Assembly (NCBI GenBank): GCA_947448395.1
Contig: CANFNA010000011.1
Location: 1 to 37,485 of the forward strand
DNA length: 37,485 nt
Direction of reading: 5' to 3'
DNA from: Chthoniobacteraceae bacterium
GTDB taxonomy: Bacteria; Verrucomicrobiota; Verrucomicrobiia; Chthoniobacterales; Chthoniobacteraceae
The notes under the pieces were generated by a model that saw only the letters and a program-made list of their open reading frames with translations, was not told the origin of the DNA and did no database searches. The translations under genes were made by a program, and so were the position numbers. Every line of letters begins with the position of its first letter. Within the stretch, counting starts at the first letter, position 1. Shown here piece after piece: positions 14,939-37,485 of the stretch.

Positions 14939-16345
14939 TTAGTCTTTTTCGACTCCGCTGTTCCAATACTTCTGCATGTCCTCCGCTGAGGGAATTTCCA
15001 TGGGCCTTACGATGCGGAAGCCTAGGAATTGGGCATCAGTGTGGTACCAAACGCTTTTGGGGAATTGAGGGTCTTGGATTTTCCAATCGGGATCGGAATT
15101 GCGACGGGCTGCGACTCGGAGCTTATCTGCGGAGTCGTCATCCCAAGCCCCGCCTCTAGCGGAATGTGGGTAGGGTTTGGTTGCTTTGTTCCAAGGATTT
15201 GAATTTCCGAGAGTCCCGTAGGCTTTGGGGTCGTACTGGTCTAGGGTCCATTCGATGACGTTTCCTAGGATGTCGTGGAGGCCCCAAGGATTTGGTTTTT
15301 TCTTGCCGACCTTCTGGTACTTGCCGTCGCTGTTGTTTGCGGACCAGCAGTATTCATCCATCTGCGAGGCGTCATCGCCCCAGAAGTAGGCTGTTTTGGT
15401 TCCGGCTCTGGCTGCATATTCCCACTCTGCTTCGGTTGGGAGGCGATAGAAGAAGCCTGTTTTAGCGCTGAGCCACTCGCAGTACTTGTTAGCTGCGTGT
15501 TGGGTCATGGAGATGGCAGGAAAACCGTCCTTGCCCATGCCGAAGCTCATTTCAACGTAGGGTTGGGTGGGACGCGTGGAAGCGTCGGTGAGTTCATTGA
15601 GTTTTGGATCTACAGGGTGGAGATTCCGAATGCGCTTTTCCTCTGTGGGGTACATGAATAGTTCGAACTCATTCCAAGTGACCTCACATTTGCCCATCCA
15701 GAAGGGAGCGATTTTAACTTCACGCTGGGGGCCTTCGTCGTCTTTGCGCCCCTCCTCGGAAGCGGGGCTGCCCATCAGAAAGTTCCCGCTTGGAATGGGG
15801 AGCATTTCGAAGGCGACTTCCGTCCCTGGAATGGTCGTGGAATAGGCTTTCATTTCCTTTTCGGGAACCTTTGGAGAAGTGGCGGCGATTCGCTCGTGAA
15901 TATCCTTCACAAGCTGTGATTCATCCGTTTTTGAGGACGTTTCCTTCTTTTTGGAGACGAGGGTCAGTCCGCTGGGCCACTTGGCACCTTCTTGAATCCA
16001 TTGTTTGAGCAGTTCAGTGGATTCTTTTGGGAGCGGTCCACCCTTCTTTTTTGGAGGCATCAGAAGGTCGTCGTCTAATGGAAGGACGGTCGTCGTGTAG
16101 AGTGGGCTTTTGTCGGGTTTTCCGGGGACTAGGGCGGGGCCGTTTTCGCCGCTGGTGGTGGCTTTTTCGAAAGTATCGAGTCGGACTCCTCCTTTGGAGT
16201 TACCCTTTCCTTCTCGATGGCAGGACACGCAGTTGAGCTCCAAGATTGGCTGAATGTCTTTTACGAAGTCGATGGCGGCGCTGGCTGGAATAGCACTGGC
16301 GAGACTGAGGCTCAGTAGTGAGGGGAAGGAAATGGACCGTTTCAT
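14939..16345 (-). CDS. Cytochrome c-like (PSCyt1) and FGE/SUMF1-like fusion protein, secreted
   Basis: A 468-residue exported protein with a signal peptide at residues 1-23. Residues about 25-125 form a planctomycete-type cytochrome c domain with the haem motif 'CVSCH' and 'DDDLLMPPKKKGGPL', whose Met may be the axial ligand. The rest (about 160-455) is a formylglycine-generating-enzyme-like (sulfatase-modifying) domain: 'MGSPASEEGRKDDEGPQREV', 'YRLPTEAEWEYAARAG', 'NPWGLHDILGNVIEW' and 'LGFRIVR'. The C-terminal active-site Cys pair of genuine FGE is not seen; the corresponding 'VAARRNSDPD' segment has no Cys. It is therefore more likely a binding or structural FGE-fold domain than an oxidase. 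This architecture is common in Planctomycetes and Verrucomicrobia. It is a single gene with its own terminator. Confidence 0.85.
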   Translation of the reverse strand: MKRSISFPSLLSLSLASAIPASAAIDFVKDIQPILELNCVSCHREGKGNSKGGVRLDTFEKATTSGENGPALVPGKPDKSPLYTTTVLPLDDDLLMPPKKKGGPLPKESTELLKQWIQEGAKWPSGLTLVSKKKETSSKTDESQLVKDIHERIAATSPKVPEKEMKAYSTTIPGTEVAFEMLPIPSGNFLMGSPASEEGRKDDEGPQREVKIAPFWMGKCEVTWNEFELFMYPTEEKRIRNLHPVDPKLNELTDASTRPTQPYVEMSFGMGKDGFPAISMTQHAANKYCEWLSAKTGFFYRLPTEAEWEYAARAGTKTAYFWGDDASQMDEYCWSANNSDGKYQKVGKKKPNPWGLHDILGNVIEWTLDQYDPKAYGTLGNSNPWNKATKPYPHSARGGAWDDDSADKLRVAARRNSDPDWKIQDPQFPKSVWYHTDAQFLGFRIVRPMEIPSAEDMQKYWNSGVEKD

Positions 16346-23461: not shown

Positions 23462-24961
23462 ATGACCACCCCCACCATCACACTTTCCCAGCTTGAATCC
23501 CATTTATGGAAAGCCGCGTGGCTGTTGAAGGGGCCTGTCGATGCGGCAGATTTCAAAACTTATATCTTCCCACTCCTGTTTTTCAAGCGGCTCTCAGATG
23601 TTCATGACGAGGAGCACGCTGTCGCGCTGGCGGAGTTCGACGGCGATAAGGAAGCCGCACTATTCCCGGAGAACTACCGCTTCCAGGTGCCGGAGAGCTG
23701 CCATTGGCGGGATGTGCGGAAGGTGGCGGTGAATGTCGGGCAGGCTTTGCAGACCGCCCTGCGCGGCATCGAGCAGGCAAACCCGCACACGCTCTACGGC
23801 ATCTTTGGCGATGCGGCGTGGACGAACAAGGATCGCCTGCCCGACAAGCTGCTGCGCGATCTCATAGAGCACTTCTCCGCACTGCCGCTGGGGAACGGCG
23901 TCGCCGAGGCGGACATCCTCGGGCAGGCCTACGAGTATCTCATCAAACAGTTCGCCGACGCCACGAACAAGAAGGCGGGCGAGTTCTACACCCCGCGATC
24001 TGTCGTGCGGCTAATGGTCAACATCCTCGATCCCCGAGAGGGCGAGTCGATTTATGACCCCACCTGCGGCACCGGCGGTATGCTACTGGAGGCCGTTCAT
24101 CATGTGAAAGAGACGCGCGGCGATGTCCGCACGCTCTGGGGCAAGCTCTACGGTCAGGAGAAAAACCTCACAACCTCCGCCATCGCCCGCATCAATCTCT
24201 TCCTGCACGGGGCCACCGACTTCAAGATTGTGCGCGGCGACACCCTGCGGAACCCGGCCTTCTACTCCGGCGACAACCTCGCCACCTTCGACTGCGTCAT
24301 CGCCAATCCGCCCTTCTCCCTGGAGAAATGGGGCGACGAGGTCTGGACCAGCGATCCCTACGGGCGGAACTTCGCCGGCATGCCGCCGGGCAAGAGCGGC
24401 GACTACGCCTTCGTGCAGCACATGATCAAAAGCATGGCTCCGAAGACCGGGCGCATGGCCGTCGTCCTCCCGCACGGAGCCCTCTTCCGCATGGGCAAGG
24501 AGGGCGAGATTCGGAAAAAGCTCCTCGGCATGGACCTGCTGGAGGCCGTGATTGGCCTCGGGCCGAATCTCTTTTACGGCACCGGCCTTGCCGCCTGCAT
24601 CCTCGTCTTCCGGCAACAGAAGGCGAAGGATCGGAAGAAGAAGGTGCTCATCGTCGATGCCTCGAAAGAGTTCAAAACCGGCCGCGCCCAGAACGAGTTG
24701 CTCTCTGAGCACGTTGAACGCATTCACGGCTGGGTTCGCGACTTCCAAGACGTGGAAGGCATCGCCCGCGTCGTCACGCTGGACGAGATCGCCGCCAACG
24801 ATCACAACCTCAACATTCCTCGCTATGTCGAGCCGAAGGTCGAGCAGGAGGTGCTCACCGTGGAGGAAGCGATGAAACGGCTGCGCGAGAGCGCGGAGGC
24901 GGCGTTCGCGGCGGAGGAGATGCTAGTGGGAATGCTCAAACGGGAGGGATTGTTGGTATGA
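23462..24961 (+). CDS. hsdM: Type I restriction-modification DNA methyltransferase subunit (HsdM), copy 1
   Basis: A 499-residue N6-adenine methyltransferase subunit. The N-terminal helical domain ('LESHLWKAAWLLKG...YIFPLLFFKRLSD') is followed by the catalytic domain with the SAM motif 'TCGTGG' (residues 201-206) and the NPPF active-site motif (282-285). It needs an HsdS specificity subunit to methylate DNA. The gene is GC-rich (a sample line is about 63 percent) compared with the chromosomal genes to its left (about 48 percent in a sample line), consistent with import. Its stop overlaps the next gene's ATG (ATGA). It is clearly paralogous to the second hsdM at 26698, with long near-identical stretches at DNA level, but no hsdS follows it directly. 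Confidence 0.95.
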   Translation: MTTPTITLSQLESHLWKAAWLLKGPVDAADFKTYIFPLLFFKRLSDVHDEEHAVALAEFDGDKEAALFPENYRFQVPESCHWRDVRKVAVNVGQALQTALRGIEQANPHTLYGIFGDAAWTNKDRLPDKLLRDLIEHFSALPLGNGVAEADILGQAYEYLIKQFADATNKKAGEFYTPRSVVRLMVNILDPREGESIYDPTCGTGGMLLEAVHHVKETRGDVRTLWGKLYGQEKNLTTSAIARINLFLHGATDFKIVRGDTLRNPAFYSGDNLATFDCVIANPPFSLEKWGDEVWTSDPYGRNFAGMPPGKSGDYAFVQHMIKSMAPKTGRMAVVLPHGALFRMGKEGEIRKKLLGMDLLEAVIGLGPNLFYGTGLAACILVFRQQKAKDRKKKVLIVDASKEFKTGRAQNELLSEHVERIHGWVRDFQDVEGIARVVTLDEIAANDHNLNIPRYVEPKVEQEVLTVEEAMKRLRESAEAAFAAEEMLVGMLKREGLLV

Positions 24962-26667
24962 CTGAGATTCCGGCAGAACTTCAGCGAACTCTGGGTGGTC
25001 TGGAAGGTGAGCATTGCGAGTTCAAAGAATGGAAGACCAAGGACAACTTCGATGGGCTCACAAAATACGCCTGCGCTCTAGCGAACGAAGGCGGGGGGAA
25101 AATTATTCTTGGCGTTTCAGATCAGCGCCCACGCCGGATCGTTGGCACCCAAATTTGGCCACAGATTGAGCTTACGAGAAAAAACCTTAACCAACGCATT
25201 CACCTCACCACTCATTGGGAGGAGTTCCTGACTCCTGAAGGCCGGGTTCTGGTCATCACGGTGCCCCGTCATGCCTATGGATTACCTGCGGCCTGGGATG
25301 GTCGCTCGTGGATGCGGGAGAATGACAGCTTGGTGCCCCTCTCCGAGGCGCGTCGAAAGTCAATCTGGGAGGAAATCGGTCGGGATTTCACTGCCGAACC
25401 CTGCTCGGGTCTCGTGTTGGGCGATCTCAACCCCTCCGCCATCGAAGCCTTCCGTCATGCCTGGGTTCACTCACTGCGGGCGCGTCGCGAAGAATCGGGT
25501 CAGCGTGATGCTGAACGCATCGCAGGGCTTCGCCATGAGCAGTTGCTTCGCGACACGGAGTTGCTTCTTGCGAACGGCACTTTGGTCAATGCGGCCTTGA
25601 TTCTCTTCGGCTCCCGGCAGGCGGTGCGCAAACACATGGCTCAGGCCGAGCTGGTTTATGAGTTCCGCAACACCCCCGCTTCGGGTCCTGCGGATTTGCG
25701 TTTGGAGTTTCAAGAAGGTTTCTTCGCGTGGCATGATCTCCTTTGGCAGCAGGTCAATGAACCCAGTCGTAATCCGCGGCAATCTTTCCAGTCGGGGCTT
25801 TTCGTCCGGCAGTTGCCGTCCTTCGCCGAACGTCCGGTGCGTGAAGCACTCCTCAATGCCGTCTGCCACCGTGACTACCTGCTCGGAAACAGCATCTTCA
25901 TCCGACACGCACCCACTACGCTTACCATTGAGAGTCCGGGTGGCCTGCTTCCGCAGGTCACCGTGGAGACACTGCTTGATCGGCAAGCGCCGCGGAATCG
26001 TCGCCTAGCCGAAGTTTTTCAGCGTTGCGGCATGGTTGAGCGTTCCGGTCAGGGAATGAACCTCATCTTCGAAGACGCCATTACCAGCGCCAAGCAGCTC
26101 CCCACGCCAGAAGCCTCCCCCTTTCAGTTTAATCTGACCCTTCATGGCGTGGTCCAGGATCCGCCTTTCCTTGCCTATCTGGAGAGGGTCGGTCAGGAGA
26201 AAATGCGGCTTTACGACACAGCGCATCTCCTGGTCCTAGATTCAGTGCGGCGGGATGTGGGGCTTCCAGATGGTCTGAAGCCTCTGGCAGACCGCCTCGT
26301 CACCGATGGTCTCCTGGAGCGAGTCAGTCGTGGTCGAGGTGCGCGATTGATTCTCTCTCGCACCTTCGCCTCTGCCATTGGTGAGTCCGCCACCTACACC
26401 CGCCGAAAGGGGTTGGATCAGGATGAAGGTAAGCTGCTGCTGCATAAACATCTTGTCCACAAAGGCGACCATGGTGCGCCTTTGGAGGAACTTGCTCAGG
26501 TCCTTCTCTCAAAGACAAAGAGACAAGTTCAACACTTGCTGCGTCTTTTGGCCAAGGATGGCATGGCGATCCCGCCACGCCGTGGGCGCGGAGGACTTTG
26601 GAAATCAACAACATGTGTGCAATCCGACCCGCCGCAGGAATTAAACACAAACCCTGATCGTGTTTAA
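24958..26667 (+). CDS. AlbA_2/Schlafen-type DNA-binding protein with ATPase (HATPase_c_4) and winged-helix regions
   Basis: A 569-residue protein, start overlapping the hsdM1 stop. The N-terminal AlbA_2 (Schlafen AAA_4) domain shows 'EGEHCEFKEW' and 'LANEGGGKIILGV' (about residues 17-52). A GHKL-type ATPase follows with 'REALLNAVCHRDY' (about 295-307), 'LTIESPGGLLPQV' and 'ERSGQGMNLIFEDA'. C-terminal winged-helix-like segments (about 415-545) end the protein. Such proteins are often annotated as putative transcriptional regulators or RecG-like helicases and are common companions of type I RM genes in defence islands. Its job there, regulatory or as a restriction-linked effector, is not established here. 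Its stop lies in an 11-bp inverted repeat. Confidence 0.82.
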   Translation: MTEIPAELQRTLGGLEGEHCEFKEWKTKDNFDGLTKYACALANEGGGKIILGVSDQRPRRIVGTQIWPQIELTRKNLNQRIHLTTHWEEFLTPEGRVLVITVPRHAYGLPAAWDGRSWMRENDSLVPLSEARRKSIWEEIGRDFTAEPCSGLVLGDLNPSAIEAFRHAWVHSLRARREESGQRDAERIAGLRHEQLLRDTELLLANGTLVNAALILFGSRQAVRKHMAQAELVYEFRNTPASGPADLRLEFQEGFFAWHDLLWQQVNEPSRNPRQSFQSGLFVRQLPSFAERPVREALLNAVCHRDYLLGNSIFIRHAPTTLTIESPGGLLPQVTVETLLDRQAPRNRRLAEVFQRCGMVERSGQGMNLIFEDAITSAKQLPTPEASPFQFNLTLHGVVQDPPFLAYLERVGQEKMRLYDTAHLLVLDSVRRDVGLPDGLKPLADRLVTDGLLERVSRGRGARLILSRTFASAIGESATYTRRKGLDQDEGKLLLHKHLVHKGDHGAPLEELAQVLLSKTKRQVQHLLRLLAKDGMAIPPRRGRGGLWKSTTCVQSDPPQELNTNPDRV

Positions 26668-26670
26668 TTC
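26638..26670 (+). promoter_or_regulatory. Perfect 11-bp inverted repeat between AlbA_2 gene and hsdM2
   Basis: Arms at 26638-26648 (GAATTAAACAC) and 26660-26670 are exact complements with an 11-nt loop. The repeat spans the stop codon of the AlbA_2 gene and ends 28 nt before the hsdM2 ATG. It is AT-rich in a GC-rich setting and has no T-tract, so an operator for a dimeric regulator is a reasonable reading; an mRNA processing hairpin is the alternative. Confidence 0.5.
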
Positions 26671-26697
26671 TGTGTTCAATTCCGCGCTCAATTCGCC

Positions 26698-28185
26698 ATG
26701 ACCCGCATCACCCAACAACAACTCGAATCCTACCTCTGGGGAGCTGCGGTGCTTCTGCGGGGCACCATTGATGCAGGAGACTATAAGCAGTTCATCTTCC
26801 CGCTGCTGTTCTACAAGCGCCTGTGCGATGTCTTTGATGAGGAGACGGTCACCGCGCTGCGGGAGTCGGGCGGGGATCAGGACTTTGCGTTGTTCCCGGA
26901 GAACCACCGCTTCCAGGTGCCGGCGGATGCGCATTGGCGGGAGATTCGGAAGGTCAGCCGTGATGTGGGCCGCGCCTTGCAGCAGGCCATGCGGGCCATT
27001 GAGACCGCCAACCCCGACAAGCTCTTCGGCATCTTTGGGGATGCGCAGTGGACGAACAAGGACCGCCTGTCGGATGCCATGCTGCGCGACCTCATTGAGC
27101 ACTTCTCCTCGCTCGAACTCACCGTCGCCAACCTGCCCGAGGACGAGCTGGGCCAGGGCTACGAGTATCTCATCAAGAAGTTCGCCGATGACTCGGGCCA
27201 CACTGCCGCCGAGTTCTACACGAACCGCACCGTCGTCCACCTCATGACCGAGATGCTCGACGTGCAGCCCGGCGAGTCCGTCTATGACCCCACCTGCGGC
27301 TCCGGCGGCATGCTGCTCTCCTGTATCGCCCACCTGCGGAATCAGAAGAAGGAATGGCGAAACGTGAAGCTCTACGGCCAGGAGCGGAACCTCATGACCT
27401 CCTCCATCGCCCGGATGAACTGCTTCCTCCACGGCATCGAGGACTTTCGCATCGAGCGCGGCGATACCCTGGCCGAGCCGAAGCTCGTGGAAGGCGACCG
27501 CCTCATGCGCTTCGATGTCGTGCTGGCCAATCCGCCCTACTCCATCAAGCAGTGGGACCGCGACGCCTTCGCATCCGACCCCTGGGGGCGCAATCTCTAC
27601 GGCACCCCGCCGCAGGGCCGCGCCGACTACGCCTTCCAGCAGCACGTTTTGCAAAGCCTCAAGCCCAAGTCCGGCCGCTGCGCCGTTCTCTGGCCCCACG
27701 GCGTGCTTTTCCGGCAGGAGGAGGCGGAGATGCGCCGCAAGCTCATCGAGGCCGACCTCATCGAGTGCGTGCTCGGGCTCGGCCCGAACCTCTTCTACAA
27801 CTCGCCCATGGAAGCCTGCGTCGTCGTCTGCCGCACGCAGAAACCCAAGGCCCGGCGCGGCAAGATCCTCTTCATCAACGCGGTGAACGAAGTCACCCGC
27901 GAACGCGCCCAGAGCTTCCTCACCGACGAGCACCTCCAGCGCGTTGTCCGCGCCTATCAGAACTTCAAGGACGAGCCCGGCTTCACCCGCGTCGTGCCCA
28001 TCGAGGAAATCCGAGCGAAGGAGGGAAATCTGAGCATCCCGCTGTATGTCGGAGGCGAGACGCAGGGGCAGACTGATGCCGCTGCCGAGTCTGCCACCAC
28101 TGCGCTGCCAGACGCGCTGGCGAGATGGCTTCAGAGTGCCGCTTCAGTCCGGAAACAACTTAACGCTCCCATCTCGGCCAAATGA
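26698..28185 (+). CDS. hsdM: Type I restriction-modification DNA methyltransferase subunit (HsdM), copy 2
   Basis: A 495-residue HsdM with the SAM motif 'TCGSGG' (199-204) and active-site NPPY (278-281), both intact. It follows copy 1 almost residue for residue through the N-terminal domain ('IFPLLFYKRLCDVFDEE', 'WTNKDRL', 'LRDLIEHFS'), and differs mainly in the C-terminal third. It is GC-rich like hsdM1 and hsdR. The stop overlaps the start of the HNH-type gene (ATGA). It probably forms the modification enzyme with the intact HsdS at 30586 and is the natural partner of the HsdR at 32746. Confidence 0.95.
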   Translation: MTRITQQQLESYLWGAAVLLRGTIDAGDYKQFIFPLLFYKRLCDVFDEETVTALRESGGDQDFALFPENHRFQVPADAHWREIRKVSRDVGRALQQAMRAIETANPDKLFGIFGDAQWTNKDRLSDAMLRDLIEHFSSLELTVANLPEDELGQGYEYLIKKFADDSGHTAAEFYTNRTVVHLMTEMLDVQPGESVYDPTCGSGGMLLSCIAHLRNQKKEWRNVKLYGQERNLMTSSIARMNCFLHGIEDFRIERGDTLAEPKLVEGDRLMRFDVVLANPPYSIKQWDRDAFASDPWGRNLYGTPPQGRADYAFQQHVLQSLKPKSGRCAVLWPHGVLFRQEEAEMRRKLIEADLIECVLGLGPNLFYNSPMEACVVVCRTQKPKARRGKILFINAVNEVTRERAQSFLTDEHLQRVVRAYQNFKDEPGFTRVVPIEEIRAKEGNLSIPLYVGGETQGQTDAAAESATTALPDALARWLQSAASVRKQLNAPISAK

Positions 28186-29156
28186 ACCTATCAAAGGAGC
28201 AAAACGACGCCGTTGGGTTTTATGACCAGCACTATTCTATCGTCTTCGATAGCGAACTGGTCGTTGGCCGTCACATCAAGCTAGCTGACCAACCAGACAC
28301 AGAAGGCCGCATTTGTCGGTTTTGCGGACTTGGAAAGCCACAGGTCACATTCCGTAAAGTTGCCCATGCAGTCCCGGAGTTTCTTGGAAACAAATCGCTT
28401 GTCTCCCAAAACGAGTGCGATGCCTGTAATGAAAAGCTGGCCGATGAATACGAGGATCACCTTTCCAAATGGTTCGGTCCAATGCGCACCGTATCTCAAA
28501 TCAGAGGCAAAGGCGGTGTCCCAACATACAAAAACAAGGACATTCGTATCGAGATGGGCGAAAAGGGTCTCGAAATAGGAATCGTTGCGGACGAACTGGA
28601 GTCATCTCTGAAGTTTGATGGCCCGTTCACGTTCAAGATTCCCGTTCCGACTCCTGCCCAAGCGCACGTCCCGCTGAGAGCTGCAAAAGCTCTGTTAAAA
28701 GTGGCCTGCTCAATTTGTCCGCCTGGGCTCGTGAGCGAATGCCAGCCGACTATTGACTGGCTTATGTCCCGCGTGACTGCGCGGCTTTCGATGTTTCCCG
28801 TGCTGTTTGCGTTTACGCCAGGGCCAAACCCACATCGGGACGGCAAAGTGCTTTTGCTCCGACGGAAAAGCGACGCGAAGCTGCCTTTGCTTTGGTGTAT
28901 CTTGGCCACTGCGAATTATCGGTTTCAATTCTTCGTCCCGTTCTGCCCGTCAGATTCTTGGATCTCTCCGGGTGAGCCTGTCCAACTAACGCTTCCGCAT
29001 TTTCCGGACGTTTTTGGCGACAACTGGCCGCATGGGAAAACTGGGTTCGGGGTCTTCGACTGGTCGGGAACTGAGACAGTGGTCCGAGAACAGTCAGTGT
29101 GCTTCCATGTCGATCGCGTGGAGAAGGTGGACATCAAACCCAATTCAGCAAACTGA
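28182..29156 (+). CDS. Putative HNH-type nuclease, accessory gene in RM operon
   Basis: A 324-residue protein between hsdM2 and the hsdS region. A zinc-finger/HNH-like module is visible at residues about 45-93: 'CRFCGL' (C45, C48), 'AHAVPEFLGNKSL' (H62, N70), 'ECDACNEKL' (C79, C82, N83) and H93. This fits the CxxC...HxxPxxLG...CxxCN layout of HNH endonucleases. The C-terminal about 220 residues are not recognised. Its GC content (about 45 percent in a sample line) is well below that of hsdM2 before it. The start overlaps hsdM2 (ATGA) and the stop overlaps the truncated hsdS (TGATG). It is probably a defence effector acting with or beside the type I system; activity is inferred from motif only. 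Confidence 0.62.
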   Translation: MNLSKEQNDAVGFYDQHYSIVFDSELVVGRHIKLADQPDTEGRICRFCGLGKPQVTFRKVAHAVPEFLGNKSLVSQNECDACNEKLADEYEDHLSKWFGPMRTVSQIRGKGGVPTYKNKDIRIEMGEKGLEIGIVADELESSLKFDGPFTFKIPVPTPAQAHVPLRAAKALLKVACSICPPGLVSECQPTIDWLMSRVTARLSMFPVLFAFTPGPNPHRDGKVLLLRRKSDAKLPLLWCILATANYRFQFFVPFCPSDSWISPGEPVQLTLPHFPDVFGDNWPHGKTGFGVFDWSGTETVVREQSVCFHVDRVEKVDIKPNSAN

Positions 29157-29353
29157 TGATTTCCGTTGCTCCATCAATTGGCTCCTTCAAGCCCAATCCC
29201 GCTTGGGCTTCTCGCCCGGTCTTCGAGCGGACCGACTGGAAGCTGGTGGGGATTGGGGATGTGATGGAGAATTGTGCTGAAACCTGCGATCCAGAGGAAT
29301 CGGGGTTGGAACGGTTTGAGGCAATAGAGGATTTGGACACAAAAGCTGAATGA
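29156..29353 (+). pseudogene. Truncated hsdS 5' fragment (65 codons), coupled to both neighbours
   Basis: A 65-residue frame homologous to the first residues of the intact HsdS at 30586: 'FKPNPAWASRPVFERTDW' corresponds to 'LKPNPAWATLPLFDRTGW' there, and it ends at 'FEAIEDLDTKAE', just at the 'GLEHLDP' element where the first target-recognition domain begins. It starts at 29156 within the HNH gene's stop (TGATG) and stops in an ATGA overlap with the HEPN-type gene. It is too diverged from the local hsdS to be a recent duplicate, so it is probably a relic of another hsdS allele. It may still act as a translational relay between flanking genes. Confidence 0.75.
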
Positions 29354-30582
29354 ATACGAATTTCTTGATGCCTCTCACAAACTCTCGCGGACTGGGGAAG
29401 GTTGTCTTCTTTTCGGGATTGCAGTTTCCCATGGTGATCACTCCGAGCATCATGGGGGAACCAATTCTCACGGCTCAGCCGTTCTATTTTCTGGAGCGAC
29501 TGGATTCGGTGGCGAAGACGCGCTTTGATTCAACTAAGCCGATTCCATCAGAACGCGAGCAGGAGTATGTTATTGATAACTACCTATTCGAGTATTCCAA
29601 GCGGCACCCAGAATCCAAGCTGACGAGCAAGATCAGCGAGTTCGTTTTCTGGAAAGAGGACCCAGCGGAGCACTATTTCCGATACGATTGGCTTCTGACG
29701 GAGTGCCTCGTGTTGGACACGTTGAACGACGACACTATCGTCGAGTGCACCGACCCGAACCATACGAGCAAGGATCACTTTTACGACTGGTGCTTGTTCA
29801 AACCGTATTTCCAAGAAGCGTTTGAGGAATATCGCAGAAAGCTGGAAGCTGCGATGGCAATCTCTGCCAGTGTGGAGACCAAAGATCATTCGAGCCTTGG
29901 AACAGGCAAATACACACTTCCTATAATTAAGGTCGCCGGCAGCATAGTGACCTTGGAGCAAGCAGAGACATTCGACGTGATTGAACCTGGGCGCCCAAAA
30001 CAAGGGTCAATGGAGTATCCCGTGAATCGAGGGTTCCCGTCTTCCTCCAATTTCAAGATCGAGCAGGAACTCATTACTACGACAGCCCTGCATGACGAGC
30101 AGTTGCTCGCTTACTACTTTTCAGCGTTGAGGGACTACTCTCCGGTTTCCCAATTCAAGAATTTCTACAACGTTCTCGAATACTTCTTTGAGGAGGCTCC
30201 CGTAAAACTCGGAGTGACCGCGAAGAATGAAAAACAGCAGATTGACGCTGTGCTGCGATGGGCGGTTGCAGCTGGCGACCTGCTGCGAACGCTTAATTCC
30301 TTACCAGCCAGTGCTTCGGCAAGAATTACCCAGGCACGGGCCACTTCCAGTGGTGAAGTCATTCCGGCAGTCAATTTAGCCGCGCCGGACATTATCGGGG
30401 AGTATGCGGCCCATGTGTATCAACTTCGGAACGCGTGCATTCACTCAAAGAAGACGAGGAAAGGTGCCCCTACACCTCGGATTGCCCCCTCTACGGCTGA
30501 AGAGGAGATACTGAAAGACGAGATGCCTGTCATGCAGTGGCTTGCAGTCCAGTGTATCGAGAAGTGTATCGAGAAGCGCTGA
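29350..30582 (+). CDS. HEPN-motif protein, accessory gene in RM operon
   Basis: A 410-residue protein with no overall family that I recognise. Near the C-terminus a helical region ('FKNFYNVLEYFFEEAPVKLG', then 'AAHVYQLRNACIHSKK') contains R360-N361-x3-H365, the R-x4-H signature of HEPN ribonucleases, in the usual 'YxLRNxxxH' context. The N-terminal about 270 residues are of mixed character and may be a sensor. It starts in an ATGA overlap with the truncated hsdS and ends 3 nt before the intact hsdS ATG. GC content (about 43 percent in a sample line) contrasts with 72 percent at the start of hsdS. The ORF ends with a 12-nt tandem repeat encoding CIEKCIEK. A role as an abortive-infection RNase guarding the RM system is an inference. 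Confidence 0.65.
   Translation: MNTNFLMPLTNSRGLGKVVFFSGLQFPMVITPSIMGEPILTAQPFYFLERLDSVAKTRFDSTKPIPSEREQEYVIDNYLFEYSKRHPESKLTSKISEFVFWKEDPAEHYFRYDWLLTECLVLDTLNDDTIVECTDPNHTSKDHFYDWCLFKPYFQEAFEEYRRKLEAAMAISASVETKDHSSLGTGKYTLPIIKVAGSIVTLEQAETFDVIEPGRPKQGSMEYPVNRGFPSSSNFKIEQELITTTALHDEQLLAYYFSALRDYSPVSQFKNFYNVLEYFFEEAPVKLGVTAKNEKQQIDAVLRWAVAAGDLLRTLNSLPASASARITQARATSSGEVIPAVNLAAPDIIGEYAAHVYQLRNACIHSKKTRKGAPTPRIAPSTAEEEILKDEMPVMQWLAVQCIEKCIEKR
30553..30576 (+). repeat. 12-bp tandem duplication at the 3' end of the HEPN-type gene
   Basis: TGTATCGAGAAG occurs twice in direct succession (30553-30564 and 30565-30576), encoding the repeated tetrapeptide CIEK at the C-terminus. It keeps the frame. It may be a slippage duplication. 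Confidence 0.85.
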
Positions 30583-30585
30583 ACA

Positions 30586-31797
30586 ATGACCGCCGCACTC
30601 CCATCACTCGCCAAACTGAAGCCCAATCCCGCCTGGGCCACGCTCCCGCTCTTTGACCGCACGGGCTGGCGGCGCATGGCGTTTGGGGAGTTTGCGGAGA
30701 GCATCGGGGAGCGGGCGGAGCCGAAGGATGCGCAGGAGGAGATTTATGTGGGGCTGGAGCATCTTGACCCGCAGTGCCTGCACATCCGGCGCTGGGGGAA
30801 GGGCAGCGATGTCACGGGCACGAAGCTCCGGTTCCGGAAGGGCGACATCATCTTTGGCCGCCGCCGCGCCTATCAGCGGAAGCTGGCCGTGGCGGAGTTC
30901 GACGGCATCTGCTCCGCTCATGCCATGGTCGTGCGGGCCAGGCCGGACAAGGTGCTGCCGGAGTTCCTGCCCTTCCTCATGATGAGCGACCGCTTCATGA
31001 ACCGCGCCGTGGAGATTTCCGTCGGCTCGCTCTCGCCCACCATTAACTGGACCACGCTCAAGCTGGAGGAGTTCGACCTCCCGCCGCTCGACCAGCAGCG
31101 CCGCATCGCGGAAATCCTTTGGGTGGTGGATGAGGCGATGAATCGCTTTCAGAAACTAGAGGAAAGGACTGCCCGGTGCGCCGACGCGGCACGTAACGAG
31201 CACTTCATCTCAGAAAGGCATTCCAACTCACTGGTTCCCATACGCCAGACAGGGCGCTGGGTCAGTGGAAACACACCATCAAGAGGACGCAGTGAATACT
31301 GGATGGGTTCCTTCCCTTGGGTCAGCCCAAAAGACATGAAGGTGGCGTTGATCGGTGACTCCGAAGAGCATCTGTCCGAGTCGGGCCGAAATGAAGCCAC
31401 CGTTGTAGGCGCTGGAAGCCTCCTTATCGTCATTCGCGGAATGATTTTGGCGCACTCATTTCCGCTCGGGATCACGACGAGAGATGTGGCCTTCAACCAA
31501 GACATGAAAGCACTCGTGCCAGCCGAAACACATTCTGTGGAGTATGTGTTTCACTGGTTCCGTTGGGCGAAAGACAAGATTCTGTCGTGTATTTCGGATA
31601 GCTCACACGGAACTAAGCGCCTGGCGATGGAAGACCTGTTCGCCATGAAGATTCCAACGCCGTCACGGAAGGAACAGGCCCGCTTTGTCGAAAGCGTTCA
31701 CGCACTCGAATCTACTTCGTGTCGCGTCCGACAGAATTTCCAGAAACTTACGAGCGTCCGCACCGCCTTACTCAACCAAGCGTTCACCGCCAAATGA
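30586..31797 (+). CDS. hsdS: Type I restriction-modification specificity subunit (HsdS)
   Basis: A 403-residue HsdS with the two-domain plan: N-terminal target-recognition domain (about 1-165), first conserved helical spacer with 'FDLPPLDQQRRIAEIL' and 'DEAMNRFQKLEERT', second target-recognition domain (about 205-360) and a distal helix ending 'RTALLNQAFTAK'. It binds the two half-sites of a bipartite target and positions the HsdM subunits. The first half is very GC-rich (about 72 percent in a sample line) and the second half is not (about 48 percent), which suggests that the second domain was exchanged by recombination. The stop overlaps an ATG belonging to a duplicated hsdR start. Confidence 0.93.
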   Translation: MTAALPSLAKLKPNPAWATLPLFDRTGWRRMAFGEFAESIGERAEPKDAQEEIYVGLEHLDPQCLHIRRWGKGSDVTGTKLRFRKGDIIFGRRRAYQRKLAVAEFDGICSAHAMVVRARPDKVLPEFLPFLMMSDRFMNRAVEISVGSLSPTINWTTLKLEEFDLPPLDQQRRIAEILWVVDEAMNRFQKLEERTARCADAARNEHFISERHSNSLVPIRQTGRWVSGNTPSRGRSEYWMGSFPWVSPKDMKVALIGDSEEHLSESGRNEATVVGAGSLLIVIRGMILAHSFPLGITTRDVAFNQDMKALVPAETHSVEYVFHWFRWAKDKILSCISDSSHGTKRLAMEDLFAMKIPTPSRKEQARFVESVHALESTSCRVRQNFQKLTSVRTALLNQAFTAK

Positions 31798-31823
31798 GCT
31801 TCACCGAATCCAACACCGTCGAG
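31794..31823 (+). repeat. Direct repeat, copy 1: duplicated first 30 bp of hsdR
   Basis: Bases 31794-31823 are identical to the first 30 bases of hsdR (32746-32775), including its ATG. In this copy the frame continues only to codon 13 and stops at TGA 31833-31835, which overlaps the ATG (31832) of the PD-(D/E)XK nuclease gene. The copy therefore keeps the hsdS-to-hsdR ATGA coupling and hands translation to the inserted gene. Confidence 0.95.
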
Positions 31824-31831
31824 CGGATGCA

Positions 31832-32743
31832 ATGAACAAGAAACTGTCGCCAGCTTTCGTCGAATTGACCCAAGACGCCATTCTCAAGGTGATCTGGTTC
31901 AAGAGCAGCTTGCGCGTGTTTTTGATCCAGCATCGAATCTCCGATTCCGCGCTTGCTCAGTGGCATTCTGACCAGTCAAAGCGGGATTTCATTCAGTGGC
32001 TTTGGCCAAGGCTTGTGAAGGATGAGAAGGGGCAAAATGCGATTCTGGCGATGGCGAGATCACTGGCCGAGATGAAGCATTTCCCCGACCTCGAACGGAA
32101 GGAAGATACGAAAGAGCGAATTCCCGAGGCCGTCGAGGCAGTAAACCGTTTGAGGTTGGCCGTAGCTGAAATCAACGAGGCCATTCGCGAAACAAAGGCC
32201 TCAGAGGCGAGGCGAAAAGCCGCGATGGAAGACGCATCGAAAAGACAAGCAGCGCAGCAGTCTCTTGAAAAACTCCAAGCGGCGCTCAATGGGCTCATAA
32301 GTAAGATAGGAACCCAGGAAGGCGGATATGAGTTCGAGCGTTGGATCTACGATCTGGCAGTTTACTTCGAGCTCGAAGCACGACCTGGCTACAAAGCGGC
32401 AGGTCGGCAGATTGATGGAGCCATTACTATCGAAGGCACAACCTTTCTCGTTGAAGCCAAACTGGTGAACGAGCCAATCGGCTCTCCGGATATCGACATC
32501 TTCATGGCCAAGATCGATTCAAAGGCCGACAATACGATGGGCCTCTTTATCTCGTTGTCTGGCTTCAATGATGGAGCGAAGCAAGCAGCCTCAAAGCAGC
32601 GCACACCAATGCTTCTCCTAGATTCGAGTCATGTCTTTAATCTGATTATGCGTGGCGAAATGACACTACCTCAAGTGGTGTCTCGCATTAAACGTCACGC
32701 ACACCAAACCGGCTCGTCCTATCTTGCTGCCACTGACTTTTAA
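31832..32743 (+). CDS. Putative PD-(D/E)XK (Mrr-like) restriction nuclease, inserted between hsdS and hsdR
   Basis: A 303-residue protein read from ATG 31832, which overlaps the stop of the duplicated hsdR leader (ATGA); the longer frame from 31685 lies inside hsdS and is rejected. The N-terminal about 155 residues are helical and charged, with a coiled coil at about 100-155. The C-terminal domain shows 'GYEFERWIYDLAVYFELEA' followed by D195 in 'GRQIDGAI' and E208-x-K210 in 'TTFLVEAKL', the PD-(D/E)XK catalytic signature in an Mrr_cat-like setting. It ends 2 nt before the hsdR ATG. It may be a second, modification-dependent or accessory nuclease; that role is inferred. Confidence 0.72.
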   Translation: MNKKLSPAFVELTQDAILKVIWFKSSLRVFLIQHRISDSALAQWHSDQSKRDFIQWLWPRLVKDEKGQNAILAMARSLAEMKHFPDLERKEDTKERIPEAVEAVNRLRLAVAEINEAIRETKASEARRKAAMEDASKRQAAQQSLEKLQAALNGLISKIGTQEGGYEFERWIYDLAVYFELEARPGYKAAGRQIDGAITIEGTTFLVEAKLVNEPIGSPDIDIFMAKIDSKADNTMGLFISLSGFNDGAKQAASKQRTPMLLLDSSHVFNLIMRGEMTLPQVVSRIKRHAHQTGSSYLAATDF

Positions 32744-32745
32744 CC

Positions 32746-32775
32746 ATGAGCTTCACCGAATCCAACACCGTCGAG
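32746..32775 (+). repeat. Direct repeat, copy 2: native 5' end of hsdR
   Basis: This is the authentic start of hsdR and matches 31794-31823 over 30 of 30 bases; the copies are 952 bp apart. Identity begins exactly at the ATG and ends at codon 10, beyond which the sequences differ. Confidence 0.95.
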
Positions 32776-35736
32776 CAGATAATCCTCGACGCCGCGACCT
32801 CGCTCGGCAGCGGCGCGGGTTCGTCGGTGCTGCGGGAGGACCCGCCCGCGGGCTGGGGCGGTTCGTTGGGCGAGGAGTTCAAGCCCTCGAAATGGACCTT
32901 TGTTGATCCGCTGAAGGTGCCGCGTCAGTCGGGCGAGGTGATGGTGGAGATGTGGGTGCGGGAGGCGCTCATCGCCCTGAACCCGGAGATCGCGGCGCAG
33001 CCTGACCGGGCGGACGAGGTGATCTATGCCCTGCGGGCCATCCTGCTCGCTGTGGGCGGCGACGGGCTGGTGCGGGCGAACGAGAACTTCACGATGTGGC
33101 TGCGCGGGGAGAAGACGATGCCCTTTGGCCCGAACGGCGAGCATGTGCCGGTGCGCCTGCTCGACTTTGCCCAGCCGGGCCGGAACCGGCTGACGGTGAC
33201 GAAACAGTGGACCTTCCAGAGCGGCACGGTGGAGAAGCGCTTTGATGTGGTTTTTCTCATCAACGGACTGCCGCTGGTGATCGGCGAGGCGAAGACGCCG
33301 ATGCGCAGCGCGGTGACGTGGTTCGACGGAGCGTATCAGGTGAACGAGATCTATGAGAAGGAAGTGCCGGCCATGTTTGTGCCGAACGTCTTCTCCTTTG
33401 CCACCGAGGGCCGCTGCCTGCGCTACGGCAGCATCCGCATGCCCATCGACCTCTGGGGACCATGGCGCGACGACGACAACCAAGAGGAGGGCAATCTGGG
33501 TCATGTCCGCAAGACGGTGGAGAGCCTCCTGCGGCCCGCCGTGGTGCTGGACATCCTGCAAAACTTCACCCTCTTCGCCACGGACAAGAAGCACCGGCGC
33601 ATCAAGGTCATCTGCCGCTACCAGCAATACGAGACGACGAACAAGATCGTGGCCCGCGTGGTGGCCGGGTATCCGAAGAAGGGCCTCATCTGGCATTTCC
33701 AGGGCAGTGGCAAGAGCCTGCTCATGGTATTCGCCGCGCAGAAGCTGCGCCTGCATCCGCGCCTGGGCAATCCCACCGTGCTCATCGTGGTGGACCGCAT
33801 CGACCTCGACACCCAGATCACCGCCACCTTCAACGCGGCGGATGTGGCGAACATGGTCGGCGTGGGCGATCGCAAGGAACTGCAACGCCTGCTGGGACAG
33901 GACGTGCGCAAGGTGCTGATCACGACGATTCACAAGTTCGCCGAGGCAGACGGTAAGCTGAACGAGCGCAGCAACGTCATTGTGATGGTGGACGAAGCGC
34001 ACCGCACCCAAGAGGGCGACCTCGGCCGCAAGATGCGAGATGCTTTGCCAAACGCCTTCCTCTTCGGTCTCACGGGCACGCCGATCAACCGGGCGGATCG
34101 CAATACCTTCTGGGCCTTCAGCGCGGACGAGGACGTGCAGGGCTACATGAGCCGCTATTCCTTCCAGGATTCCATCCGTGACAAGGCGACGCTGCCGCTG
34201 CACTTCGAAGCCCCGGCGGTGACGCTCAAGATCGACAAGGCGGCGATTGATGAAGCCTACAAAGAAATCACCGGCGACCTGAGCGAGCAAGACCGCGACG
34301 ACCTGGCCAAACGCGCCGCGAAGATGGCCGTGCTGGTGAAGAACCCGGAGCGCGTGCGGGCCGTAGTGGAGCACATCGTGGGGCACTACCAGACCAAAGT
34401 GGAGCCGAACGGCTTCAAAGCGCAGGTGGTGGTCTTCGACCGCGAGTGCTGCGTGCTTTACAAGAAGGTGATGGACGAACTCATCGGCCCTGAGGCCAGT
34501 GCCGTGGTGATGAGCAGCGCCCAGCACGACAAACCGGAGTGGAAGGAGCACATCCGCGACAAGGACGCCGAGGAAAAGCTGCTCGACCGCTTCCGCGATC
34601 CTGCGGACCCGCTGAAGTTTGTCATCGTGACGAGCAAGTTGCTCACCGGTTTCGACGCGCCAATTGTCCAAGTGATGTATCTCGACAAGCCGATGAAGGA
34701 TCACAACCTCCTTCAGGCCATCTGCCGCGTGAACCGCACCTACGGCCAGACGAAGACGCATGGCCTGATCGTGGACTACATCGGCATCTTCGACGATGTG
34801 GCGCAGGCGCTCGATTTCGACGAGAAGGCCGTGCAGCAGGTGGTGAGCAATATCGACGAACTGCGGAAGGCCCTGCCAGTGCAGATGCAGAAATGCCTGG
34901 CGTTCTTCCCGAACGTGGACCGCAGTGTCGGCGGTTATGAGGGGCTTATGGCTGCCCAGCAATGCCTGCCGGACAACGTCACGCGGGACAAGTTCGCCGC
35001 TGAATACAGCGTGCTCGGCACCATATGGGAAGCGCTGTCACCCGATCCCTGCTTGAGCCCGTATGAGAAGGACTTCAAGTGGCTGACGCAGGTCTATGAA
35101 TCCGTGAAGCCCGTCAGCGGCAACGGTCGCCTGCTCTGGCACCGGCTGGGCGCCAAGACGATCGAACTTATCAACGAGAACGTGCACGTGGAGGCAGTTA
35201 GGGATGATATTGAAACGCTGATTCTGGATGCCGACGTCCTCGATGGAATCCTGAATGACGCGAATCCAGAAAAGAAGGCGCGCGAAATGGAAATCAAGCT
35301 AATCGCCCGCCTCAGAAAGCATGCAGGCAATCCGAAGTTCAAGGAACTGGGAGAACGCTTGGAGAAGATTCGTGAAAAACACGAACAGGGATTGCTCAAC
35401 AGTCTGGAGTTTTTGAAAGCGATTCTCGAAGTGGCAAAGGAAACGGTCGAAGCCGAGAAGCACGGGGAGCCCGAGGAAGAAGAGGATCGGGCTCTTGCGG
35501 CGCTGACTGAACTGTTCAACGAAGTGAAGGGCAAGAACACGCACGTCATCGTCGAGCGCCTTGTCGCAGATATAGATGCTATCGTTAAAGAGGTCCGATT
35601 CCCTGATTGGCAGAATACGAGTGGGGGTCAAAGAGAAGTGCAGAAGGTGCTGCGTGCCTCCTTGCGAAAATATCAGCTCCACACGGATCAAGAGCTTTTT
35701 GACAAGGCCTACGGCTACATCCGGCAGTATTACTGA
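32746..35736 (+). CDS. hsdR: Type I restriction enzyme motor/nuclease subunit (HsdR)
   Basis: A 996-residue HsdR. The N-terminal nuclease domain has D167 and E181-A-K183 of the PD-(D/E)XK site in 'RFDVVFLINGLPLVIGEAKT'. The superfamily 2 translocase follows: Walker A 'QGSGKS' (319-324), DEAH box (416-419), 'GLTGTPI', and later 'TSKLLTGFDAP' and 'LLQAICRVNR'. It translocates and cuts unmodified DNA with HsdM and HsdS. The last about 190 codons drop from about 72 to about 47 percent GC in sample lines; this end contacts the methyltransferase core, so the gene may be a recombinant. It ends tail-to-tail with the HTH gene, overlapping it by 7 nt. Confidence 0.96.
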   Translation: MSFTESNTVEQIILDAATSLGSGAGSSVLREDPPAGWGGSLGEEFKPSKWTFVDPLKVPRQSGEVMVEMWVREALIALNPEIAAQPDRADEVIYALRAILLAVGGDGLVRANENFTMWLRGEKTMPFGPNGEHVPVRLLDFAQPGRNRLTVTKQWTFQSGTVEKRFDVVFLINGLPLVIGEAKTPMRSAVTWFDGAYQVNEIYEKEVPAMFVPNVFSFATEGRCLRYGSIRMPIDLWGPWRDDDNQEEGNLGHVRKTVESLLRPAVVLDILQNFTLFATDKKHRRIKVICRYQQYETTNKIVARVVAGYPKKGLIWHFQGSGKSLLMVFAAQKLRLHPRLGNPTVLIVVDRIDLDTQITATFNAADVANMVGVGDRKELQRLLGQDVRKVLITTIHKFAEADGKLNERSNVIVMVDEAHRTQEGDLGRKMRDALPNAFLFGLTGTPINRADRNTFWAFSADEDVQGYMSRYSFQDSIRDKATLPLHFEAPAVTLKIDKAAIDEAYKEITGDLSEQDRDDLAKRAAKMAVLVKNPERVRAVVEHIVGHYQTKVEPNGFKAQVVVFDRECCVLYKKVMDELIGPEASAVVMSSAQHDKPEWKEHIRDKDAEEKLLDRFRDPADPLKFVIVTSKLLTGFDAPIVQVMYLDKPMKDHNLLQAICRVNRTYGQTKTHGLIVDYIGIFDDVAQALDFDEKAVQQVVSNIDELRKALPVQMQKCLAFFPNVDRSVGGYEGLMAAQQCLPDNVTRDKFAAEYSVLGTIWEALSPDPCLSPYEKDFKWLTQVYESVKPVSGNGRLLWHRLGAKTIELINENVHVEAVRDDIETLILDADVLDGILNDANPEKKAREMEIKLIARLRKHAGNPKFKELGERLEKIREKHEQGLLNSLEFLKAILEVAKETVEAEKHGEPEEEEDRALAALTELFNEVKGKNTHVIVERLVADIDAIVKEVRFPDWQNTSGGQREVQKVLRASLRKYQLHTDQELFDKAYGYIRQYY

Positions 35737-36122
35737 AATTCGCTGCGCGGAATGGATTTCGTAACTTGTGATTGGGAGCGCAACACCCTCTCCGTAAGCC
35801 TTGCCCGCCCTGGGCCTCCTTTTAGAAAGAGAATCTCCTCCTGCTCAGTTGGTGGCAGGTTCAGCAGGTTCATGATCTGCGTAATCCGCGCTCGGGAAAC
35901 GCCCCCCAGCCGGGCCAAGTCTGCATAGTCTTTCACAAGGCCCTGTCGAATAAGACCCTCAAAGTGGATGGCTAGAGCCATGAGCCGAGCAATCCGAGGC
36001 ACTGGATCTGGAGGTGCTGAGGTGGGCTTCGGCTCCGGCCCTTCAGCAATGGTTTTTCGGCCTGCCTTGGCTCGAGTGAAATGCATGCGGGTTACGATGG
36101 AGAGACTGGCTGAGTGCATCAT
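35730..36122 (-). CDS. Small HTH protein coupled to the serine recombinase
   Basis: A 130-residue protein with basic N-terminus and a helix-turn-helix-like segment around residues 62-90 ('KDYADLARLGGVSRARITQI'), reminiscent of ParB/KorB-type HTH motifs, followed by 'LNLPPTEQEEILFL'. Its ATG overlaps the stop of the recombinase upstream on the same strand (about 4 nt), so the two are co-translated. Small proteins of this kind often follow serine recombinases in bacterial islands and may control direction of recombination or gene expression; the precise role is unknown. Confidence 0.7.
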   Translation of the reverse strand: MMHSASLSIVTRMHFTRAKAGRKTIAEGPEPKPTSAPPDPVPRIARLMALAIHFEGLIRQGLVKDYADLARLGGVSRARITQIMNLLNLPPTEQEEILFLKGGPGRARLTERVLRSQSQVTKSIPRSEFQ

Positions 36123-37485
36123 TTTTCGTCGGCTAAAACTTTGATTCCGGAGGGCCAGAACGAAATCGCCACGGTGCCCTTTTCCCGGTCATAGGTGACT
36201 TGTTCCAAAAGCAGGCTCAGGCAGCGGGCTTGATGGACCTGTGGCATCGAATCAATGAACTGGCGAAACGCTCCGAGAGCTTTGGCAATTTCTGGCGTGG
36301 TGATGGTTGCTTTCCCTAAGAAGGCCAGCTCGTTTTGGGTCGTTACCAGCCTCAATTCCCCTGCTCGGAGTTGGGCTTCAATCTCGGCCAAGCGCGCTGA
36401 GGCATTTGGAAGCTCAAAAATCCCGGCTACCAGCCTCGCGTTGTTCCGGAGAGCTTTTTCGATCTCTGCTTTCTCAGCTTCGAGCTTGGTCATTCTGCCC
36501 TCCCGCTGGGCGCGAGCGGTCTCCTCTACTTTTCCAATCAGCTTGGGGCTCTCGCCAATGGCCGAAATTTGTCCCACAACGAAATCCTCAATTTCCTTGG
36601 CCGGGATGGAACGGGTCGGGCAGACCTTCGCGCCCTGTTTCGTGGACTTCAGGCAAACGTAGTAGCGATACCGCGTTGTGCCTTTGCAGGTGTAAGTGTG
36701 GATCATCGAGCAGCCGCAGGAACCGCATTTGAGAAGGCCCTTGAGCAGCCCGCTGAACTTGGTGCGTCTGATACCTCCGCCTTTCTGCGCGTTCCTCTGG
36801 ATCAGAGACTGAGTCACCCCCCAAGTTTCCATGTCGATGATCGGGGCGTGTTCGCCGTCGTAAATCTTGCCCTGATAATCCACTTTCCCGAGGTAGGCCA
36901 AATTGGTGAGGAGAAGGGAAAGATTGGAGGTTGTCCAGGGGCCGCCCCCGGCTGTTTTCCCACTCTTTGAGACCCACGTTTTTCTCGGCACCCGTTGCCG
37001 GTTAAGCTCCTCCACCGTCGCCAAAATCGAACGCCGCTCGTGATAAAGCGCGAAAATCTCTCGCACAAGTCGGGCATCTTCCTCGTTGATCACGAGTTTG
37101 CGAACCTGCGGGTCGAGGTCGTACCCCAGAATCACAGAGCCGCCCACCCATTTGCCCTTCCGTCGCGCCGCGCTCATTTTATCCCGCGTCCGCTCTGAAA
37201 TAATCTCCCGCTCAAACTGGGCGAAGGAGAGTAGAATGTTCAGAGTAAGGCGGCCCATGGAATGGGTGGTGTTGAACTGCTGCGTGACGCTCACAAACGA
37301 GCACCCATGGCGATCCAGCGTCTCCATGATTCGGCTGAAATCGAGGAGCGAGCGCGAAAGGCGATCCACCTTGTAAACCACGATGGCGTCCACTTTCTTC
37401 GCCTCCACATCTAAGAGCAGCCGCTGCAGGGCGGGGCGCTCCATGTTGCCGCCGGAAAAGCCGCCATCGTCGTACTGCTCTGGTA
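36119..37485 (-). CDS. Large serine recombinase, N-terminus beyond window edge
   Basis: At least 455 residues, with the frame open to the right edge. Upstream of the internal Met at 37444 the frame continues as 'EQYDDGGFSGGNMERPALQR', a classic resolvase-domain element, so the catalytic Ser region lies outside. Visible are 'VYKVDRLSRSLLDF' and 'FEREIISERTRDKMSAARRKG' of the resolvase domain, a recombinase domain ('GPWTTSNLSLLLTNLAYLGKV'), a zinc ribbon ('CGSCGCSMI' and later 'YVC' and 'KVCP'), and a C-terminal coiled coil ('MTKLEAEKAEIEKALRNNA'). It probably mobilises the island to its left. It faces toward the RM operon and is followed by a coupled HTH gene. Confidence 0.92.
   Translation of the reverse strand, partial: PEQYDDGGFSGGNMERPALQRLLLDVEAKKVDAIVVYKVDRLSRSLLDFSRIMETLDRHGCSFVSVTQQFNTTHSMGRLTLNILLSFAQFEREIISERTRDKMSAARRKGKWVGGSVILGYDLDPQVRKLVINEEDARLVREIFALYHERRSILATVEELNRQRVPRKTWVSKSGKTAGGGPWTTSNLSLLLTNLAYLGKVDYQGKIYDGEHAPIIDMETWGVTQSLIQRNAQKGGGIRRTKFSGLLKGLLKCGSCGCSMIHTYTCKGTTRYRYYVCLKSTKQGAKVCPTRSIPAKEIEDFVVGQISAIGESPKLIGKVEETARAQREGRMTKLEAEKAEIEKALRNNARLVAGIFELPNASARLAEIEAQLRAGELRLVTTQNELAFLGKATITTPEIAKALGAFRQFIDSMPQVHQARCLSLLLEQVTYDREKGTVAISFWPSGIKVLADEK

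Follow-up and report, generated by a model that had tools for sequence, protein, structure and literature searches.

Truncated core-gene ends beside accessory genes in a type I restriction-modification operon of a Chthoniobacteraceae bacterium and in other type I loci

Introduction

Type I restriction-modification (R-M) operons are known to host embedded antiphage genes. For instance, PrrC is embedded in the PrrI operon (PMC3710099), and darTG2 lies between hsdS and hsdR in enteropathogenic Escherichia coli, where the gap between these two genes has been termed a potential recombination hotspot (PMC12255303). The portions of these descriptions that were available do not explain by what route such genes get into an operon of tightly overlapping genes while leaving it intact. 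This question is raised by a stretch of 37,485 nt from a Chthoniobacteraceae bacterium (assembly GCA_947448395.1, contig CANFNA010000011.1, positions 1 to 37,485), which was analysed as a whole and is called the window in the following. It contains a type I R-M operon in which an accessory gene stands behind a truncated start of hsdS and another one behind a truncated start of hsdR. An earlier note, made from the letters of the window alone, had seen in these two cases a hint of a recurring way of loading cargo into type I operons.

Two truncated core-gene starts in the window operon

The part of the operon that carries the two fragments consists of the following features:

29156–29353, forward strand: truncated hsdS start of 65 codons, colinear with the hsdS at 30586 and from another hsdS allele, closest to the hsdS of locus L039 (locus numbers refer to the survey below)
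29350–30582, forward strand: accessory gene encoding a protein of 410 amino acids (aa), HEPN-like by motif only, in ATGA overlap with the hsdS fragment
30586–31797, forward strand: full hsdS (Pfam Methylase_S, 3e-18, in two stretches)
31794–31835, forward strand: truncated hsdR start of 13 codons with the native hsdS–hsdR junction kept; 35-nt direct repeat, ATGA at both ends
31832–32743, forward strand: accessory PD-(D/E)XK nuclease, Mrr-like (Pfam Mrr_cat, 2e-8; partial match to PADLOC PDC-S02, 4e-7)
32746–35736, forward strand: full hsdR (Pfam SWI2_SNF2, HSDR_N and T1R_D3-like); 32746–32780 is the second copy of the repeat

Both fragments described in the earlier note are borne out by the coordinates, as is the way in which they are joined to their neighbours. 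The 65-codon hsdS-start frame ends in an ATGA that also holds the start of the 410-aa gene (29350), and 3 nt separate the stop of this gene at 30582 from the full hsdS. The hsdR-start frame MSFTESNTVERMQ (31794–31835) is held between two overlaps of the same kind, one with the hsdS stop at 31797 and one with the nuclease start at 31832, and the full hsdR begins 2 nt behind the nuclease stop at 32743. The presence of two truncated core-gene starts beside the cargo of the window is thereby confirmed as a real observation.

The two fragments differ in kind. The hsdR fragment is a near-exact repeat that starts precisely at the ATG, positions 31794–31828 and 32746–32780 being identical at 34 of 35 nt, whereas the hsdS fragment corresponds to the beginning of another hsdS allele. 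Scores from a start-anchored protein comparison were 134 for the hsdS fragment versus 40 for the highest of 278 hsdS-start nulls, and 46 for the 13-codon hsdR fragment versus 44 for the highest of 294 hsdR-start nulls. As the latter is barely above its protein nulls, the hsdR fragment is better supported by the DNA repeat and the place where it lies.

Sister operons

Eleven loci with a close hsdR (at least 79% aa identity in the best segment) were placed beside the window, seven of them from genome contigs (L002–L008) and four from a search of the order (L009–L012); in some of these the hsdR is incomplete in the contig. Native junctions can be read from four sister operons without cargo between hsdS and hsdR (the S–R slot): the two genes overlap in an ATGA in L003, L039, and L041 and are separated by a 4-nt gap in L038. 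The ATGA junction of the cargo-free sisters is the one found upstream of the cargo in the window, in L006, and in L007. Thus, the comparison by which the earlier note had hoped to define the insert boundaries maps the window insert to the native hsdS–hsdR junction, which is an ATGA in three of the four sisters.

Locus L007, a contig of another metagenome bin, encodes the same nuclease (84% aa), preceded by a 13-codon hsdR start that has diverged and is likewise joined by ATGA. This contig, present twice (as L007 and L076), has the nuclease insertion of the window, its fragment being decayed. The insertion in L006 is another one: an hsdR start with 38 homologous codons adjoins the hsdS stop and is followed by a gene for a PRTase-CE/winged helix-turn-helix (wHTH) protein, a reverse transcriptase gene, and an hsdR split into two frames. 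The PRTase-CE/wHTH and reverse transcriptase genes behind this fragment (L006:915-3482) were read as a retron-like pair. In L005 and L008, S–R cargo is present without a recognisable fragment. In L038, a stretch on the reverse strand (15434–15483) that resembles an inner part of hsdR follows directly after the hsdR stop.

Recurrence of core-gene scars in type I loci

The survey comprised 150 type I loci. Set 1 consisted of 90 loci, namely 80 regions, nine close relatives, and the window, with two loci present twice (L007/L076 and L008/L079), and set 2 of 60 validation regions out of 80 planned. Seven loci came from searching genome contigs for hsdR, and the others were drawn from whole-genome searches. 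Core genes were typed by hidden Markov models (HMMs) built for this analysis. Slots of at least 300 nt were found 98 times between hsdS and hsdR and 53 times between hsdM and hsdS (the M–S slot); 21 S–R and 56 M–S slots are tight, and the remainder lies in between. For detection of core-gene fragments beside cargo, in the following called scars, segments of 240 nt from each core gene were compared with the 6 kb beyond the gene edge on both strands. After a complexity filter, same-strand matches were obtained for 27 of 836 edge segments and 14 of 5484 inner segments, and opposite-strand matches for 7 and 14, respectively. A second scan used start- or stop-anchored protein comparison with shuffled and opposite-strand nulls; with it, most hsdR and hsdS cases were found again, as were two (L103 and L174) of the six hsdM ends, and the hsdM ends of L165 and L144 were added.

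Eighteen fragments were taken as genuine and all were rechecked. Most are present in two copies; in L137 the further copy is the other fragment of the same locus, in L199 a third copy lies inside hsdS, and in L126 there is a further exact 36-nt copy upstream. Candidates in L082, L083, L084, L101, L106, L110, L113, L136, L173, and L191 were dropped by hand as low-complexity or dispersed repeats. Of these, L082, L083, L084, L136, L173, and L191 show several or opposite-strand copies, whereas L101 and L110 have two copies only and were dropped because of their composition (a 27-nt GC-rich run and a hairpin). The final counts leave out weak or extra cases, namely L149, L194, and the hsdM ends of L165 and L144, which came from the anchored test only.

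Fragments of hsdR 5' ends were found at 8 of 147 edges (the window, L006, L080, L120, L137, L171, L176, and L164) and fragments of hsdM 3' ends behind cargo at 6 of 132 (L103, L126, L160, L207, L174, and L202). In L120 the reading frame reaches further upstream than the likely start, so that the match falls in the second segment. At hsdS, three 3' fragments (L109, L111, and L199; 145 edges) and one 5' fragment (window only; 139 edges) were recognised. At the outer edges of the operons, the 5' end of hsdM gave none in 124 and the 3' end of hsdR one in 149 (L170, 77 nt past the gene). Scars are enriched at the inner edges of the conserved genes (14 of 279) versus the outer operon edges (1 of 273; Fisher P 0.0009); hsdS edges gave 4 of 284 (P 0.017). 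The hsdM-end copy of L202 is readable as protein and was retained; without it, P for inner versus outer edges is 0.0016.

The scan for core-gene fragments beside cargo has thus found the recurrence that the earlier note suggested, and the layout is seen with different cargo and different hsdR families. A general rule, as which it had been put forward, it is not: hsdR-start fragments recognised by the scan occupy 6 of the 98 S–R slots with cargo, two further slots (L007 and L076) hold a decayed fragment, and there is a mirror form in which the 3' end of hsdM or hsdS follows the cargo. This form was found in nine loci and is similar in frequency to the hsdR-start form (eight loci). Core-gene scars beside cargo therefore mark a minority route, which also has a mirror form. 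Where the hsdM 3' end is duplicated, the copy sits at the hsdS start, and in L165 (hsdM tail) and L199 (hsdS tail) the copied tail is fused in frame to a cargo gene. Between the hsdS stop and the fragment there are 2.0–5.5 kb in L120, L171, L176, and L164, enough to accommodate other cargo upstream of the fragment. The length of the repeats ranges from 35 to about 208 nt, and what is duplicated in each listed case is an edge of one of the two core genes that flank the cargo.

Serial arrangements were also observed. L137 (reverse strand, 113–3173) has three hsdR starts in series, two of them fragments; they are separated by a RhuM gene and an AlbA_2 gene. The extra exact 36-nt copy of the hsdM end in L126 (reverse strand, 9156–9191) lies upstream of the main one and is perhaps a second serial scar.

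A possible route of insertion and its alternatives

From the fragments, their positions and recurrence, their near-absence at outer edges, and the native junction of the sister operons, we infer a recombination route, a direction of the events, and selection as a filter. According to this reading, to which a probability of roughly 0.6 is assigned, cargo enters by one-sided recombination that is anchored by homology in hsdR or hsdM, is completed by an illegitimate join inside the resident copy, and is filtered for intact core genes. An intact-looking type I operon would take up extra genes at its internal junctions as follows. An incoming piece consisting of cargo and an hsdR start from another operon would pair with the resident hsdR, and its other end would be joined with little or no homology within the first codons of the resident gene. 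The product would be hsdS, the resident hsdR start fragment, the cargo, and a full hsdR. In the M–S slot, anchoring in hsdM would lead to a full hsdM followed by cargo, an hsdM 3' end, and hsdS. With core genes that often share about 4 nt, joins elsewhere would usually destroy a subunit; surviving inserts would therefore tend to carry a scar, which would decay after insertion. In the window, the HEPN-like gene and a new hsdS may have been joined at about codon 61–65 of an older hsdS allele, and in a separate event the nuclease may have been joined at about codon 11–12 of hsdR.

The origin of the fragments can be approached by comparison of alleles. Among the loci compared, the hsdS fragment of the window is nearest to the hsdS of L039 (79% over 149 nt), followed by that of L038 (73% over 168 nt), and is less close to the adjacent full hsdS (75% over 71 nt). 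In L126, L165, and L174, the hsdM 3' fragment is nearer to the hsdM of other operons than to its own. The fragment of L160 is nearly tied, those of L103 and L207 are nearest to their own hsdM, and L202 is outside the allele comparison. The hsdS fragment and the three hsdM ends nearer to foreign alleles speak for left-over resident alleles, and suggest that in these cases two pre-existing alleles stand behind the fragment and the full copy. This does not extend to the hsdR 5' fragments.

Several points weigh against the proposed route. The hsdM allele comparisons span only 41–87 nt. For every hsdR 5' fragment the best match, tied in two cases (the window and the first copy of L137), is its own hsdR. 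No donor molecule was found. The scar events are not all independent, as L126 and L160 share cargo (74% nt over 749) and the cargo of L103/L165 and of L202/L144 is related. In set 2 alone, inner and outer edges differ by 7 of 105 versus 1 of 104 (P 0.065), and genuine matches were told from dispersed or low-complexity repeats by hand and not blind. In E. coli, operons that have a DUF4268 gene between hsdS and hsdR differ from those that lack it by an insert. Its end carries a second copy of the last 12 nt of hsdS in front of hsdR, as part of a 14-nt match reaching into hsdR, and at the join there is a short GAGG repeat and no fragment of hsdR; the comparison gives no direction of gain or loss. 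The E. coli and Klebsiella loci concerned (L150–L155) have hsdR genes of one family, with and without the DUF4268 gene before hsdR, and the cargo gene ends in the last hsdS codons.

The similarity of the hsdR fragments to their own hsdR, which reaches 98% in several cases (L080 and L137), fits local duplication or later gene conversion as well. In a local duplication, slippage or template switching would have copied the core-gene edge in place, together with or before the insertion of cargo and without a donor allele. We regard this as rather unlikely, considering that the hsdS fragment of the window and the hsdM ends of L126, L165, and L174 are nearer to the alleles of other operons.

The earlier note had also seen in the layout a means of loading cargo without breaking translational coupling. 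In that case, the start fragments would be kept by selection as leader frames, on which ribosomes leaving hsdS restart on the cargo, and the 3' fragments would be kept for the start signal of the next gene. Six of ten start fragments do overlap the start of the following gene, with 2.67 expected from a random frame, hsdM 3' fragments sit at the hsdS start and end in ATGA in L126, L144, and L207, and the E. coli cargo gene ends with the last 12 nt of hsdS, including a GAGGA motif, before hsdR. Outside the window the overlap is reduced to four of eight (P 0.078 versus a random frame) and is missing in the second copy of L137, in L171, in L176, and in L164. Furthermore, the first cargo frame directly overlaps hsdS in 37 of 86 S–R cargo slots without a listed scar. 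Coupling via the fragment is thus not clearly beyond that of ordinary cargo, and a selected leader function is improbable. Since coupling is common for cargo with and without a fragment, the fragments look less like coupling devices than like insertion scars that have passed a filter for intact genes.

It is very improbable that the junctions are targets of a mobile element which brings its own recombinase or transposase and leaves the direct repeats as target duplications. The cargo is flanked by direct repeats, and the window encodes a serine recombinase on the other strand (36119–37444). However, repeats of 35 to about 208 nt lack the constant length that target-site duplications would have, no relative of the recombinase was seen in the other surveyed loci at E 1e-8, and among the 16 of 23 scar-cargo proteins outside the window that were scanned with Pfam, there is one reverse transcriptase and no recombinase or transposase domain. 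An assembly or chance artefact is hardly conceivable even though the window genome is a draft of 268 contigs, because L007 from another bin carries the same nuclease insertion behind a diverged hsdR start, fragments recur in loci of other genomes, and the window fragments exceed their nulls, far in the case of hsdS and just so as protein for hsdR, which is backed by its repeat as DNA.

As a tentative and rather doubtful extension of the recombination reading, the copied core-gene ends might act as cassette borders that need no recombinase. With cargo between two hsdR starts or two hsdM ends, recombination between the copies would excise the cargo and restore the native junction. Incoming pieces of cargo and hsdR start could stack beside hsdR, and L137 would be such an array.

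Relation to known systems

The operon resembles other type I loci with embedded defence genes, such as PrrC and darTG2, in having an accessory nuclease or toxin gene inside hsdMSR; it is unlike the descriptions of these operons, as far as available, in the truncated core-gene starts or ends beside the cargo. One-sided illegitimate recombination has been proposed for the immunity arrays of the type VI secretion system (T6SS) of Vibrio cholerae (PMC5361080). As in the T6SS orphan immunity arrays and the orphan 3' ends of Rhs genes treated in the accessible part of that work, serial one-sided displacement beside an anchor would leave remnants of older modules. Unlike there, where effectors are displaced, the core genes are whole here and new cargo is added. 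With respect to homology-facilitated illegitimate recombination (HFIR), the process considered here is inferred only, from natural operons, and core-gene integrity is proposed as the filter.

Embedded R-M cargo as such is already known. The earlier note knew of no description of the scar layout, and none of truncated core-gene ends beside R-M cargo was found in the literature as far as it was accessible. Embedded defence candidates obtained by guilt-by-embedding have been presented in a preprint (Payne et al. 2024), which is known from citation only; the novelty of the scars is therefore uncertain. If the proposed route is true, the scars would be a sequence-level mark of the way of entry. They would indicate its polarity (beside hsdR in the S–R slot and beside hsdM in the M–S slot) and the order of arrival, and could aid in finding embedded defence genes.

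Accessory proteins

The nuclease of the window belongs to the Mrr-type PD-(D/E)XK proteins, as the earlier note had assigned it (Mrr_cat, 34.7 bits versus a cut-off of 21, E 2e-8). The HEPN label given to the 410-aa protein is based on an RNACIH motif near its C-terminal end, read by eye. This motif fits R-x4-6-H, which we take to be the HEPN pattern. There is no Pfam match above cut-off (best MauJ, E 0.027, 15.8 bits versus 28), no PADLOC match, and no homologue at E 1e-5 among 386 other genomes of the phylum, and a fold prediction from the single sequence gave no usable model (predicted local distance difference test, pLDDT, 33.6). HEPN genes embedded in R-M neighbourhoods have been described as further effectors in the available part of PMC3710099; the window gene is likewise embedded, and differs from them in having no accepted family match.

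Of the 23 proteins listed as scar-associated cargo outside the window, 16 were scanned with Pfam; 14 were matched and two were without a match. The matches are RhuM (2), AlbA_2 with a RecG C-terminal domain (2), Fic (2), KilA-N, Bro-N, Abi_2, DUF3644, DUF3800, PRTase-CE, and reverse transcriptase; one further match, to 23S rRNA IVP, is below the cut-off.

The remaining genes of the operon and its neighbourhood

The operon extends from 23462 to 35736 as a series of closely spaced genes on a single strand, in the order hsdM1, AlbA_2 gene, hsdM2, HNH gene, hsdS start, 410-aa gene, hsdS, hsdR start, Mrr-type nuclease gene, and hsdR. Upstream of the features listed above are:

23462–24961, forward strand: first hsdM (M1), typed as HsdM by the survey HMM, overlapping the next gene by 4 nt
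24958–26667, forward strand: accessory gene of the SLFN_AlbA_2/RecG-C-like type between M1 and M2 (Pfam PF04326, 8e-15; PF13749, 4e-13)
26698–28185, forward strand: second hsdM (M2; Pfam N6_Mtase, 6e-89; HsdM_N, 4e-22)
28182–29156, forward strand: HNH accessory gene (Pfam HNH_5, 4e-9), sharing 4 nt with hsdM2

According to Pfam matches and open frames, hsdM, hsdS, and hsdR are full-length on the same strand, which identifies the locus as a type I R-M operon. The HNH label is backed by the HNH_5 match. The HNH, HEPN-like, and Mrr-like genes between M2 and hsdR lie on the same strand as the core genes, with overlaps of 1–4 nt or gaps of 2–3 nt, and by this position are predicted embedded defence genes. 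The operon has two different hsdM genes with an accessory gene between them (23462–28185); L003, L005, L008, L039, and L041 likewise show a pair of hsdM genes (or the end of one), the slot being occupied by other genes. Downstream of the operon and facing it, the reverse strand carries at 35730–37444 a small gene with a sub-threshold ParB-HTH (helix-turn-helix) match and the large serine recombinase gene.

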